Of a stretch of DNA of 64,000 bases, positions 19,485 through 23,102 are shown piece after piece. Below the pieces are notes generated by a model. The model was not told the DNA's origin, did not search any database, and saw only the letters and a program-made list of their open reading frames with translations. The first letter of the stretch is position 1. Each line of letters begins with the position of its first letter. This DNA comes from Peptoniphilus lacrimalis DSM 7455 (GTDB lineage Bacteria; Bacillota; Clostridia; Tissierellales; Peptoniphilaceae), in the NCBI RefSeq assembly GCF_000378725.1, contig NZ_KB900370.1:1-64000 (forward strand), given 5' to 3'. The position numbers and the translations under genes are program-made.

Positions 19485-20570
19485 ATGAAAAAAATAATTG
19501 GAATTTTATTAGCTTTAACTTTAATTATTCCTGTTTTTGGGCAGGTGAAATCAAACGTTTCAACAAAAACTATTCAAGGAGTTAGGTGTAATGTATGTGA
19601 ACTTACTTTAGACGAAACTTCAGAAATTCATGTTGCAAAAGGGAAAAATGCTTTAATAGGTGCAGAAAATTTTTATGAAATTGTAAAAAATAACAAGGCT
19701 CAAGTAGCGATTAACGGTAATTATTTTGATTCTTATAAAACTTTAGTTCCTATGGCAACAATTATTAAGGATGGAGAAGTTTGGAAAATGGTAGGCACCA
19801 CTCCTTCTTTTTTTGTATTTGATAAAAATAAGGTAAAAATTGATAATTTATCTTTAAAATACAAGGGTTATCTTGATGGTAAAAGAAAAAATGAATGGAA
19901 TAATGATAAGGGTCTTATGGAATTTAATGTTTTCGATTTATGGTATGTAAATGTTGATCCTACTGATACTGCAGGAATTTTTAAATTCACTAATAAATAT
20001 AATAATGAATTAAATTTAAAGAATGGAAGAGTTATTGAAGTAGTAAAAGATACTGTAACAAAAATTTATGAGCCAAAAGGAAAAATTTCTTTACCTAAAG
20101 ATGGATACATAATTTATTTTGGAAAAGATTCTGTAGATAAATCATATATTGACCAAAGATTTAAGCTTGGTAGAAAAGTTGAACTTGTCTTAGTGGATGG
20201 CAAGGGTAACGAAACTTTTAAATACAATGGTCAAGATATAAGTTATAGCAAAGTAACAGAACTTGTAGCAGCAGGACCTATGCTTTTACAAAATGGCAAA
20301 AATGTTGTAGCAGAAAGTAAGAATAATTATAAAGAAGGAAAAATAAATGCATCCACAGGTCAAAGGTCAGCTATAGGGATTACTAAAAACGGAAAAGTTA
20401 TTTTACTTACAACTGTAGCAAACGTTGATAAACTTGCTTTAATAATGAATGATTTAGGATGCATTGATGCTATGAATTTAGATGGAGGTGCATCATCAGC
20501 ATTATTTGCAAATGGAAAAGTTATAAAAAATGCTGGCAGAAATCTTAATACTGTCTTAATTTTTAAATAA
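19485..20570 (+). CDS. Secreted phosphodiester glycosidase family protein (NAGPA domain)
   Basis: From the ATG at 19485 (RBS TTGGAGG; the in-frame ATG at 19470 lies before it) the protein has 361 residues. A signal peptide spans about residues 1-22 (KKIIGILLALTLIIPVFG). The rest matches the NAGPA/DUF2233 family: AINGNYFDSYKTLVPM, RSAIGITKNGKVILLTT and the closing NLDGGASSALFANGK block, where Asp and Gly of LDGGASS are the family hallmark. The human homologue uncovers mannose-6-phosphate by removing GlcNAc from a phosphodiester. Bacterial members are secreted and may act on phosphodiester-linked sugars of wall polymers, which would fit the LTA-synthase-like gene downstream. The substrate is inference. 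Confidence 0.87.
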   Translation: MKKIIGILLALTLIIPVFGQVKSNVSTKTIQGVRCNVCELTLDETSEIHVAKGKNALIGAENFYEIVKNNKAQVAINGNYFDSYKTLVPMATIIKDGEVWKMVGTTPSFFVFDKNKVKIDNLSLKYKGYLDGKRKNEWNNDKGLMEFNVFDLWYVNVDPTDTAGIFKFTNKYNNELNLKNGRVIEVVKDTVTKIYEPKGKISLPKDGYIIYFGKDSVDKSYIDQRFKLGRKVELVLVDGKGNETFKYNGQDISYSKVTELVAAGPMLLQNGKNVVAESKNNYKEGKINASTGQRSAIGITKNGKVILLTTVANVDKLALIMNDLGCIDAMNLDGGASSALFANGKVIKNAGRNLNTVLIFK

Positions 20571-20585
20571 AAATCAAAAAATGTG

Positions 20586-20626
20586 CTGGTGGCTAATAAT
20601 AAATAAAATTTTGCCACCAGTTTTTT
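20586..20626 (+). terminator. Intrinsic terminator after the glycosidase gene
   Basis: CTGGTGGC (20586-20593) pairs perfectly with GCCACCAG (20613-20620) and is followed by six T. Confidence 0.85.
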
Positions 20627-20865
20627 AGTGCGAATTATAGAAATTTATATAGTATTTAAAATAAGTATTAATTTAAAAAATTTTTTTGTAAGAAAATTTA
20701 TTTTAATAAAATATATGCTTAATATATTTAAAAAATAAGTTTAACTAATATAAATTTTAAAAAAATTTAAAAATAATTTTCATATAGAAATCGCTAAAAA
20801 TCAATATTTGTATAGGGATAAAAAATAATCATAGTAAATTCCTTGGAAAAAATTTCAAAAAAAGC

Positions 20866-20894
20866 TTTACAATTTTTTTGAACTAAGTTATAAT
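20866..20894 (+). promoter_or_regulatory. Promoter of the candidate structured RNA
   Basis: TTTACA (20866-20871), exactly 17 bases, then TATAAT (20889-20894). A start near 20901 is predicted. No open reading frame with an RBS follows before the terminator at 21113-21145, so it appears to serve a non-coding transcript. Confidence 0.75.
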
Positions 20895-20977
20895 AAGACA
20901 TAGTTAGTTGATACTAACTATCATTTACTCAAATGATTAGAATTAACTTATGGTTAATTCATATTGCACCCATTTAT

Positions 20978-21001
20978 TATAATGTAGAATTCTACATTAT
21001 A
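20978..21001. repeat. Perfect 24-bp palindrome
   Basis: The sequence reads TATAATGTAGAA followed by its exact reverse complement TTCTACATTATA. It could form hairpin H4 of the RNA with an AATT loop, or act as a protein-binding site; both ends read TATAAT outward-in. No -35 element fits either strand. Confidence 0.8.
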
Positions 21002-21112
21002 GCTGTACTTTAATTTAATCTAAGGATACCCCCCTTGAGATTAAAACTTAAATTTTATACCAGTCTTATTTTCCATCCTCTCCTTTCATATTCAGTATGG
21101 ACGGAAAATACC

Positions 21113-21145
21113 AAAAGCCACATTCTCCCAAATGTGGCTTTTTGT
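21113..21145 (+). terminator. Terminator of the candidate RNA
   Basis: AAAAGCCACATT (21113-21124) pairs perfectly with AATGTGGCTTTT (21131-21142) around CTCCCA, then a T-rich tail. The plus-strand tail is better than the minus-strand tail, supporting plus-strand transcription. Confidence 0.85.
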
Positions 21146-21222
21146 GTATTTAAAATAATGTGAATGCTATGTAAAAGAAATATTAAAATTTGGTGAAATT
21201 TTATAAATTTCTGACACTAAAA

Positions 21223-21251
21223 TTGTAAATTTTTATTGATTGCTTTATACT
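21223..21251 (+). promoter_or_regulatory. Promoter of the LTA-synthase-like gene
   Basis: TTGTAA (21223-21228), 17 bases, TATACT (21246-21251). An AGGTGA RBS and the ATG at 21267 follow closely, leaving a very short leader. Confidence 0.75.
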
Positions 21252-21266
21252 AAGTGAGGTGATGTT

Positions 21267-23102
21267 ATGGAAAATTTTAATAAATTATTTAAGGATATAT
21301 TTTTTATTGCTTTTGTGGCTTTGTTGAGCACTACTATGGTATTTGTTTTAGCAACGGCACCTTTTTTTGAATTAATAAAAAATGTATTTTCTTTTAAACT
21401 TATTATTTTAAATTTTTTACCCCCGTTTTTGCTTGCTTTATTTTTATATGGTTTAAGTGGCAGGGTAAAAATTTCTATCGTTTTAGTTTCAGCTTTTCAA
21501 ATTATTTTTCTTATTATAAATAGAATGAAAATAATTTATAGAAAAGACCCTTTTAAACTTTCGGATATAAATGAAAGTTTAGAAGCTGTAAAAATGGTGA
21601 AAAGTTCTTATTCTCCTGATAAGTTTTCTATAATTTTAGCTCTGTTATTTTTTACATTTTTAGCTATAATATTATTTTTTTATAAAACTAATAAATTGAA
21701 TTTATCAACAAGAGCAACAATTCTTATAATAAGCCTCGTAATTGGATTTTTCTCATACAAGGGATTTTATATTTCATCAAATGTTTATAATTCTTTGAAA
21801 GTTTATGGTAATCCTTTTAATGAAATTGATGTTTATAATTCCATGGGATTTAATTATTCCTTTATTTTTAAAATCAATGCTTCAATGATTAGACCACCAC
21901 AAAATTATAACAAAGAAGAATATGCCAATAGAGATAGGGAAGATAGAGGGGAAGAAATTTCTGTATTAAAAGCTCAAGAAAAACCAAATATTGTTTGGAT
22001 AATGGGCGAATCTTTTACAGATTTTTCACAAAATCCCGTATTTTCTTTTGATAAGGGAAATGACCCTAATGAAAATTTTAAAAAGATTTGTAACCAAGCA
22101 CCAATGACAGGAAGAATTGTAGTGCCTGGATTTGGTGGAGGTACTGGTGATACAGAATTTGATGTTTTAACAGGAACCTTAACTATTGATACAGCTCCAA
22201 ATGGATCTTATGCTTTTAACATTGTAAAAAATAATACTAAATCTTTGGCAAGTGTACTAAAAAATATTGGCTATAATACTATGGCATTTCACCCAGGTTA
22301 TGAATGGTTCTACCACAGAAATGTTGTATATCCAAGACTTGGTTTTGATAAATCTAGTTTTCTTGAAAATATAAAAAATCCTGAAAATAAAGGAGATTAT
22401 TTCAGTGAAGAAAAGTTTACCGATATATATCTAGATGGATTGAAAAAATCTCTTGATTCAAAAGAAACAGTTTTTGATTATGCAGTGGATATTCAAAATC
22501 ATGGACCATATTTTTATGATAAATATGGACAAACCTTGCCTTTTAATTGCACTAAACCTCTAACAGATGAAGCAAAAGTGTGCTGGGGTTCCTATTTTAT
22601 AGGAGTAAAAGATATTGATACAATGCTTGGCAGAGTTTATGATTTTATAATGTCTAGACAAGAACCTATAATTTTTGTATTTTATGGTGACCATCTTCCA
22701 GCTTTAGGAGAAGACCCTGATGGCTACAAACAAATAGGTATTGATATGAAAGTAGATACTTTAGAGGATGAAATAACTCGTCACTCTACACCTTTTTTTA
22801 TAACTGCAAATGAAGCAGGAAGAAAATATTTGAATGTAGAAAATGCTAAGCTGACAAAAGGCTCAGTAATTTCTGCAAACTTTTTAGGATCAAGTGTTTT
22901 AGATATGCTTGGCTTTACAAAAGCTGACAATTTCTTTGAGTATAATTCTAATTTGAGAGATTATATGCCTATTATTTCAAGACATTTTATATACACTAAG
23001 GATGCAACTTATCCAAAGGAAAAAGTTGGCGGAGAAGCAGCCCAAAAATATATGGATTACAGGGCATATGAATATTACAGAGTTAATCAAAGAAAAAAAT
23101 AG
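21267..23102 (+). CDS. LTA synthase family protein (sulfatase-fold phosphoglycerol transferase)
   Basis: The 611-residue protein has five N-terminal membrane helices (residues about 1-190) and an extracellular sulfatase/alkaline-phosphatase-fold domain. Metal-site residues align with those of LtaS: Glu248 in MGESFTDF, the nucleophile Thr293 in GGGTGDTEF, and Asp475-His476 in YGDHLP. Such enzymes transfer glycerol phosphate from phosphatidylglycerol to build or prime lipoteichoic acid or related polymers outside the membrane. It stands alone with its own promoter. TagO/WecA-like and WecB genes 2-4 kb downstream suggest a regional cell-surface polymer theme, but which polymer is made is inference. 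Confidence 0.88.
   Translation: MENFNKLFKDIFFIAFVALLSTTMVFVLATAPFFELIKNVFSFKLIILNFLPPFLLALFLYGLSGRVKISIVLVSAFQIIFLIINRMKIIYRKDPFKLSDINESLEAVKMVKSSYSPDKFSIILALLFFTFLAIILFFYKTNKLNLSTRATILIISLVIGFFSYKGFYISSNVYNSLKVYGNPFNEIDVYNSMGFNYSFIFKINASMIRPPQNYNKEEYANRDREDRGEEISVLKAQEKPNIVWIMGESFTDFSQNPVFSFDKGNDPNENFKKICNQAPMTGRIVVPGFGGGTGDTEFDVLTGTLTIDTAPNGSYAFNIVKNNTKSLASVLKNIGYNTMAFHPGYEWFYHRNVVYPRLGFDKSSFLENIKNPENKGDYFSEEKFTDIYLDGLKKSLDSKETVFDYAVDIQNHGPYFYDKYGQTLPFNCTKPLTDEAKVCWGSYFIGVKDIDTMLGRVYDFIMSRQEPIIFVFYGDHLPALGEDPDGYKQIGIDMKVDTLEDEITRHSTPFFITANEAGRKYLNVENAKLTKGSVISANFLGSSVLDMLGFTKADNFFEYNSNLRDYMPIISRHFIYTKDATYPKEKVGGEAAQKYMDYRAYEYYRVNQRKK

Follow-up and report, generated by a model that had tools for sequence, protein, structure and literature searches.

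A C-rich small RNA gene of Peptoniphilus lacrimalis with a Fur-type operator, a candidate iron-sparing regulator

The stretch of Peptoniphilus lacrimalis DNA analysed here (64,000 nucleotides, hereafter the window) contains a gene for a structured RNA that is probably a small regulatory RNA (sRNA) repressed by Fur, which would be made at low iron and would base-pair mostly with the mRNAs of iron-sulfur proteins. Comparison of genomes reveals an RNA family with a common structure, conserved C-rich loops and a shared operator. The preliminary description of this DNA had seen an unclassified, structured, C-rich sRNA, probably trans-acting, and this reading is borne out by the presence of the RNA in 19/19 genomes of two genera, covarying stems, conserved loops, changing neighbours and the lack of an Rfam match. 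The operator, which lies directly past the -10 box, had been overlooked. The features of the locus are as follows.

20866–20894, + strand: sigma-70-type promoter TTTACA-17-TATAAT (motif scan; similar promoter at the same place in homologues)
20900–21144, + strand: predicted sRNA transcript of ~245 nt (start placed from the -10 box; fold z -7.06; 19-genome covariance-model family)
20909–20923, + strand: Fur-type operator TGATACTAACTATCA, a 7-1-7 palindrome at the start site (2 mismatches to TGATAATNATTATCA)
20967–20971, + strand: C-rich motif 1, CACCC, unpaired (kept in 7/7 long forms)
21009–21052, + strand: core hairpin, whose loop AUACCCC (21026–21032) is C-rich motif 2 (fold and family model)
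21049–21065, + strand: conserved stretch UAAAUUUUAUACCAGUC (UAUACC in 19/19), which the family model leaves unpaired
21068–21109, + strand: hairpin with a 7-bp outer stem, whose anti-Shine-Dalgarno-like loop CCUCUCCUUUCA (21077–21088) is C-rich motif 3 (5/7 long forms)
21113–21142, + strand: intrinsic terminator with a 12-bp stem, whose loop CUCCCA is C-rich motif 4 (loop in 7/7 long forms)

The sequence TTTACA-17-TATAAT is the top promoter-like site between 20000 and 22200, with 11/12 matches, while promoter-like sites as a class are not enriched in that interval (12 found against 15.7 expected in shuffles). The -10 box sets the expected start at 20900–20902 and the transcript would end at 21144. 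Over 20900–21144 the minimum free energy is -62.0 kcal/mol, against -32.7 ± 4.2 kcal/mol for dinucleotide shuffles (z -7.06), none of 200 being as good; the score of -7.65 for the whole interval 20866–21145 comes from a fold that partly uses bases at or just past the -10 box, outside the expected transcript. Seven stem-loops make up the predicted fold, which leaves C-rich sequence unpaired at four places (CACCC, AUACCCC, CCUCUCC and CUCCCA); a few bases of the UAAAUUUUAUACCAGUC stretch pair weakly when this single sequence is folded. Terminator-like sites number two in 20000–22200, the same hairpin on either strand, against 0.9 expected. The architecture given in the preliminary description therefore stands: the promoter is present and is the best of its neighbourhood, the chain of up to seven stems folds far better than shuffles, the 12-bp terminator was found at 21113–21142, and the loops AUACCCC, CCUCUCC and CUCCCA are all as stated there.

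Relatives of the RNA were sought by BLAST, by pattern and with covariance models. BLAST gave a close copy from within the genus (91% over 286 bases) and, of another, 68 bases; among its many weak matches, the four that were read (L004, L005, L006 and L007) look unlike the sRNA. A pattern search added Peptoniphilus mikwangii (G098); a pattern match in G088 reads by eye as coding sequence. The covariance model R1, built from four sequences, returned seven clear long forms (E <= 8.4e-9), eight weak matches in the window's genus (E 0.0047–0.086), which when read were recognised as a shorter version of this gene (the short form), and two weak matches elsewhere. From those eight short forms the model R2 was built, which found the short form in 12 genomes (E <= 3.8e-17), four of them missed by R1, and which also gave weak cross-matches to three of the long forms and to a single unrelated site. 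Weak model matches in G020 (L086), G030 (L080) and G024 (L132), having neither the operator nor the UAUACC stretch, were excluded. The L080 element (G030:C30:37761-37871), from another genus of the family, combines a C-rich hairpin, which includes CCTCTCCTTTCAT, with a terminator-like one whose loop reads UUCCCCC; it is possibly an unrelated C-rich sRNA.

The long form thus occurs in 7 genomes and the short form, with an expected length of ~135 nt, in 12, and one or the other is present in all 14 genomes of the window's genus (including P. raoultii) and in all five of a second genus (including Anaerosphaera aminiphila and P. mikwangii). In the other 230 of the 249 genomes of the order, the covariance models, run with stricter filters by which diverged members may be missed, gave no convincing member; a scan of viral contigs gave no match to the sRNA. 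Both forms share the hairpin with the C-rich loop, the invariant UAUACC and the terminator. Across the 19 members, UAUACC and a CCC motif are found in 19/19, ACCCC in 17/19 and UAUACCARUC in 17/19. Motif CUCCUUUCA is present in five of the seven long forms, and CACCC, CUCCUUUCA and CUCCCA are each missing from the short forms (0/12). Beside the sRNA gene of A. aminiphila (L003, ~801–1440) a long repeat (with GACCTATCATCAATTTATAAAATAAATTGG) is present in two similar copies, which by eye resemble a mobile element.

An alignment for compensatory changes had been proposed in the preliminary description as a check, with conservation of the stems in relatives as the point at issue; the stems are kept across two genera, and they covary. 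The R1 alignment covers 15/19 members (14 distinct) and 28 pairs in 324 cells, 90.7% of which are paired, in an alignment that was fitted to the structure and is to that extent biased towards pairing. Changes on both sides were seen in 12/28 pairs (48 cells). The observed pairing, the number of double-changed cells and the covariation score were reached by none of 500 shuffles, and the two remaining measures were equalled by 2 and 3 of 500, a control that related sequences can beat without structure. When partners were slid, pairing fell to 37–55%. RNAalifold applied to the eight short forms alone recovered the corresponding core hairpin. All seven pairs of the terminator helix show changes on both sides around a loop, CUCCCA, that is constant in 7/7 long forms; because a terminator needs no fixed loop, CUCCCA is probably kept for base pairing. 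The terminator stem is the same in A. aminiphila and G099 and differs in the other long forms. The agreement is not uniform along the RNA: one column pair of helix 1 is broken in each of the seven distinct rows from short forms, and pairing is poorly conserved in the inner part of hairpin 2 (77.8%).

Comparison of the 64-kb window with Rfam 15, another check that had been suggested, gave no family at its gathering score except one distant tRNA, consistent with the earlier statement that the RNA lacks the signatures of tmRNA, SRP RNA, RNase P or a T-box; 6S RNA was likewise unmatched in the window. At the RNA locus the best match of a permissive search stayed below threshold, scoring 30.3 bits where 50 are required, and the sequences of three relatives had no match at the gathering threshold. 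IsrR, FsrA and RyhB are not among the names of the seven weak Rfam matches, and nothing in this search makes the RNA a member of any of these families.

Several readings of such an RNA other than a trans-acting regulator have to be weighed. A short mRNA for a small protein would account for a promoter and terminator arranged as in a small gene and for a partly similar frame in 6/12 short forms, which are near-identical. Yet 9/19 RNAs have no frame of at least 12 codons, none of the frames of that length in the 19 homologues is preceded by a Shine-Dalgarno sequence, no frame is common to all, and the compensatory changes keep stems; we rejected this reading as scarcely tenable, in agreement with the earlier finding of no convincing coding frame. 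It is also very improbable that the RNA acts in cis, as a leader or attenuator for the sulfatase-family (LtaS-like) gene that lies downstream at 21267. A similar membrane-protein gene does follow on the same strand, as right neighbour, in both the window and P. raoultii, and 9/12 short forms have a LysR-like left neighbour (by eye), so that among the short forms the place of the gene is fairly stable; however, the RNA has its own terminator, the neighbours differ between the forms, and in the second genus the gene that comes next is encoded on the opposite strand in 5/5 cases. The comparison of neighbours in 19 genomes found no fixed position before a conserved gene: the locus is stable within a form and changed between forms, and no gene accompanies the sRNA throughout; this arrangement fits an RNA that acts in trans. 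An RNA that sequesters a protein, for example a sponge for CsrA or another RNA-binding protein, would agree with the presence of several hairpins whose loops are invariant, but the conserved loops are C-rich whereas CsrA sponges carry repeated GGA, and we regard this as a slim possibility.

The promoters of the family share an operator. TGATA-N5-TATCA is situated at the start site in 7/7 long forms. Short forms have the more diverged TGATA-N5-TGTCA there (3–4 mismatches) and, in 12/12, a second box (TGATAATTTTTATCA or close) at a fixed distance a few bases before the -35 hexamer; in two long forms TGATAATNATTATTA overlaps the promoter spacer, and in one TGATAATTATTTTCA lies upstream of the -35. 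The best site of each of the 19 promoters has 1–3 mismatches to TGATAATNATTATCA. These sites average 1.74 mismatches, where random sequences with matched dinucleotide composition average 4.69; a random sequence did as well as the promoter in no more than 3% of trials in 18 cases and in 6% of trials in the remaining one. For C. difficile the deduced Fur consensus is TGATAATVAWHWTCA, and the flavodoxin gene of that species has a Fur box (PMC6311696). To this consensus all 19 sRNA promoters have 1–3 mismatches.

Within the window's genome the exact operator TGATANTNANTATCA occurs four times: at the sRNA, at the start site of flavodoxin, ahead of a gene for a DUF6796 protein, and once within a coding sequence. 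When one mismatch is allowed, 21 sites are found genome-wide against 17 in a reversed control, which is hardly an enrichment, so that only exact sites are informative. In 17/19 genomes the flavodoxin promoter has a site that differs from the C. difficile consensus at no more than 2 positions (in G012 at another place than usual), and those of G001 and G005 have no site within this distance. The flavodoxin match of G005 (L106) contains an in-frame TAA and no operator was found upstream; the gene may be decaying there, or the match may be out of frame. The third exact operator, TGATATTAATTATCA at G000:C6:88392-88406 (L047:1501-1515), precedes a gene for a DUF6796 membrane protein, followed by a methyltransferase-like gene, and the DUF6796 gene is a possible further member of the same regulon.

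Two Fur-family proteins are encoded in the window's genome. One (L043), whose gene lies beside RuvX-like and RNase J-like genes (by eye), scores best with the Fur model, at 168 bits against an NCBIfam equivalog cut-off of 220, and is likely to be Fur rather than another regulator of the family. The gene of the second adjoins a ZnuA-like gene (by eye), and this protein may be Zur. The feoAB genes are a textbook target of Fur; in the window's genome their upstream region has no Fur-type box. Near the feoAB promoter (L063) stands TTAAGTATACCTAA, which we take to be reminiscent of a site for the DtxR/IdeR family, and the control of iron uptake may thus be separate from that of iron sparing, each under its own regulator. 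Taking operator and regulator together, we consider it likely that the sRNA is under the control of Fur.

Candidate targets were sought by comparing the unpaired part of the sRNA with 144 start regions (those of the window, of C6 1-80000 and of one C8 stretch, and that of ferredoxin), with start codons picked by script. The longest exact complement among the 144 regions, 14 nt over the Shine-Dalgarno sequence (-31.6 kcal/mol), belongs to oppB, which in the window's genome had been found through a motif search and is a biased choice. It is the first gene of an opp-type operon (G000:C8:32576-38245, L116), whose first Shine-Dalgarno sequence is the 14-nt exact complement of an sRNA loop. The oppB of A. 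aminiphila has a 14-nt complement to a neighbouring stretch of the sRNA. Homologues of oppB were found 15 times in relatives and eight of them were scored; together with the window's own, a long complement is present in 2/9 genes, the other seven having 6–8 nt only, and oppB was rejected as the main target. One of these seven, L140, is surpassed by a single one of the 57 control regions when ranked by energy.

The region of the standalone ferredoxin, chosen because it belongs to an iron-sulfur protein gene, has a 13-nt exact complement, GGUAUAAAAUUUA, just upstream of the Shine-Dalgarno sequence. When this region is considered by itself, the 13-nt run is equalled by 3 of 2000 shuffled sRNAs; when all 144 are considered, a run of at least 13 nt is reached by 15 of 100, and the match is not significant genome-wide. 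The ferredoxin gene was found in one genome only, and not in the stretches taken from P. raoultii, G003 and P. mikwangii. Complements of 11 nt were seen for scfB (a radical-SAM maturase, by eye) and a sodium symporter-like gene, and one of 10 nt for PFOR (by eye), like several genes of other kinds. Beside the Shine-Dalgarno sequence of rnfB (by eye), both here and in P. raoultii, is GAUUGGUAUA, complementary to UAUACCAGUC with one G-U pair; it also forms the last part of the coding sequence of rnfA, which may account for its conservation. Neither the G003 nor the G098 stretches yielded rnf genes.

As a class, genes encoding a CxxCxxC-type motif, a crude proxy that also catches proteins other than iron-sulfur proteins, would bind slightly better (20 against 1016 start regions of four genomes; one-sided p 0.013 for energy and 0.023 for run length), in a comparison that omits ferredoxin and oppB and in which some of the 20 genes are mutual orthologues. 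Run lengths in G098 show no iron-sulfur effect (7.25 against 7.38). In P. mikwangii (G098, L203:14202-16484) the 5' region of an NfnA-like gene (by eye) has a 12-nt complement, AAAATTTTATAC, to the conserved sRNA stretch. In C. difficile, oppBCAD and nfnAB are reported to go down and rnf to go up at low iron (PMC6311696); the fall of oppBCAD and nfnAB agrees with repression by an RNA of this kind, and the rise of rnf disagrees with it. Pairing at the starts of ferredoxin, rnfB, PFOR, scfB and oppB is a set of leads, suggestive only.

A different regulator recognising TGATA-N5-TATCA, either a Fur-family protein used in the manner of PerR or a redox regulator, could control a trans-acting C-rich sRNA whose targets lie outside iron metabolism, for example in peptide uptake. 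We judge this unlikely, weighing a regulator secured only as a member of the Fur family, feoAB without a box, and an oppB with the longest complement of 144 regions and a 14-nt counterpart in A. aminiphila, against an operator common to flavodoxin that fits the C. difficile Fur consensus, a regulator that scores best with the Fur model, and oppB matches which in seven other genes shrink to 6–8 nt, the window's own having been picked for its match. Under the preferred reading, control by Fur with mostly iron-sulfur targets, transcription itself, the binding of Fur, the response to iron, the pairing and the targets are all predictions. When iron is plentiful, Fur on the start-site operator would repress the sRNA gene. 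When iron is scarce, Fur would leave the operator and the ~245-nt RNA would be made, its exposed C-rich loops and UAUACC stretch pairing with the ribosome-binding sites of mRNAs, mostly for iron-sulfur proteins. Pairing would lower translation of these targets as flavodoxin, with the same operator, rises. The RNA would thus probably be an iron-saving switch under scarcity.

A more far-reaching version, which we advance tentatively and think rather doubtful, makes the RNA the lineage-wide arm of a flavodoxin/ferredoxin switch: Fur would act directly on both flavodoxin and the RNA, so that they come on together, and the RNA, through UAUACC and its C-rich loops, would shut off ferredoxin, Rnf, PFOR and radical-SAM enzymes. 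Were this so, it would provide a model for the rewiring of amino-acid fermentation at low iron. In C. difficile such rewiring is reported to be mostly not directly Fur-controlled. If ferredoxin is a true target, its 5' UTR may follow the form of the sRNA, with GGUAUAAAAUUU in long-form and GGUAUAAUUUU in short-form species. More generally, if the preferred reading is true, anaerobic peptide fermenters of the human body would use the solution of Fur plus a C-rich RNA, in two versions, one short and compact and the other long with extra C-rich loops, and the iron control of their anaerobic energy metabolism would be testable by deletion of one gene.

Iron-sparing sRNAs under Fur control are known from several lineages. 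RyhB and PrrF of the Proteobacteria are of this kind and depend on Hfq; the likeness to the Peptoniphilus RNA is in the idea of an iron-sparing sRNA under Fur. FsrA of Bacillus subtilis is a Fur-regulated sRNA with C-rich pairing regions, likewise from a Firmicute, of another lineage than Peptoniphilus. LhrC, RsaE and other Firmicute sRNAs with UCCC loops pair through C-rich loops with ribosome-binding sites, for which the C-rich loops described here would also be suited; they are not known to be controlled by Fur. The Peptoniphilus RNA has no Rfam match to IsrR, FsrA, RyhB, PrrF, LhrC or RsaE, and its comparison with IsrR and FsrA is one through Rfam. Among the open-licence matches listed, by their titles and the starts of their abstracts, there was no iron-sparing sRNA from clostridial Firmicutes and no study of a Peptoniphilus sRNA.

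The closest resemblance is to IsrR of Staphylococcus, which is described as having two Fur boxes, separate C-rich regions, some of them in hairpin loops, a terminator and genus-wide conservation, and as not being orthologous to RyhB or to any other sRNA characterised for that function (PMC9410917). The Peptoniphilus RNA shares with it Fur-type boxes in the promoter (IsrR and the short form each have two), C-rich loop regions, a terminator, conservation in the genus and a low-GC Gram-positive host. The host belongs to another order, the long form has an invariant C-rich terminator loop unlike IsrR, and the iron response and targets that are shown for IsrR are predicted for the Peptoniphilus RNA. 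With a predicted Fur-type box on 19/19 promoters, unpaired C-rich regions and an intrinsic terminator, the RNA has features of the class of Fur-controlled iron-sparing sRNAs, and it is best read as a new RNA family that, with no visible homology to FsrA, IsrR or RyhB, would work as they do.
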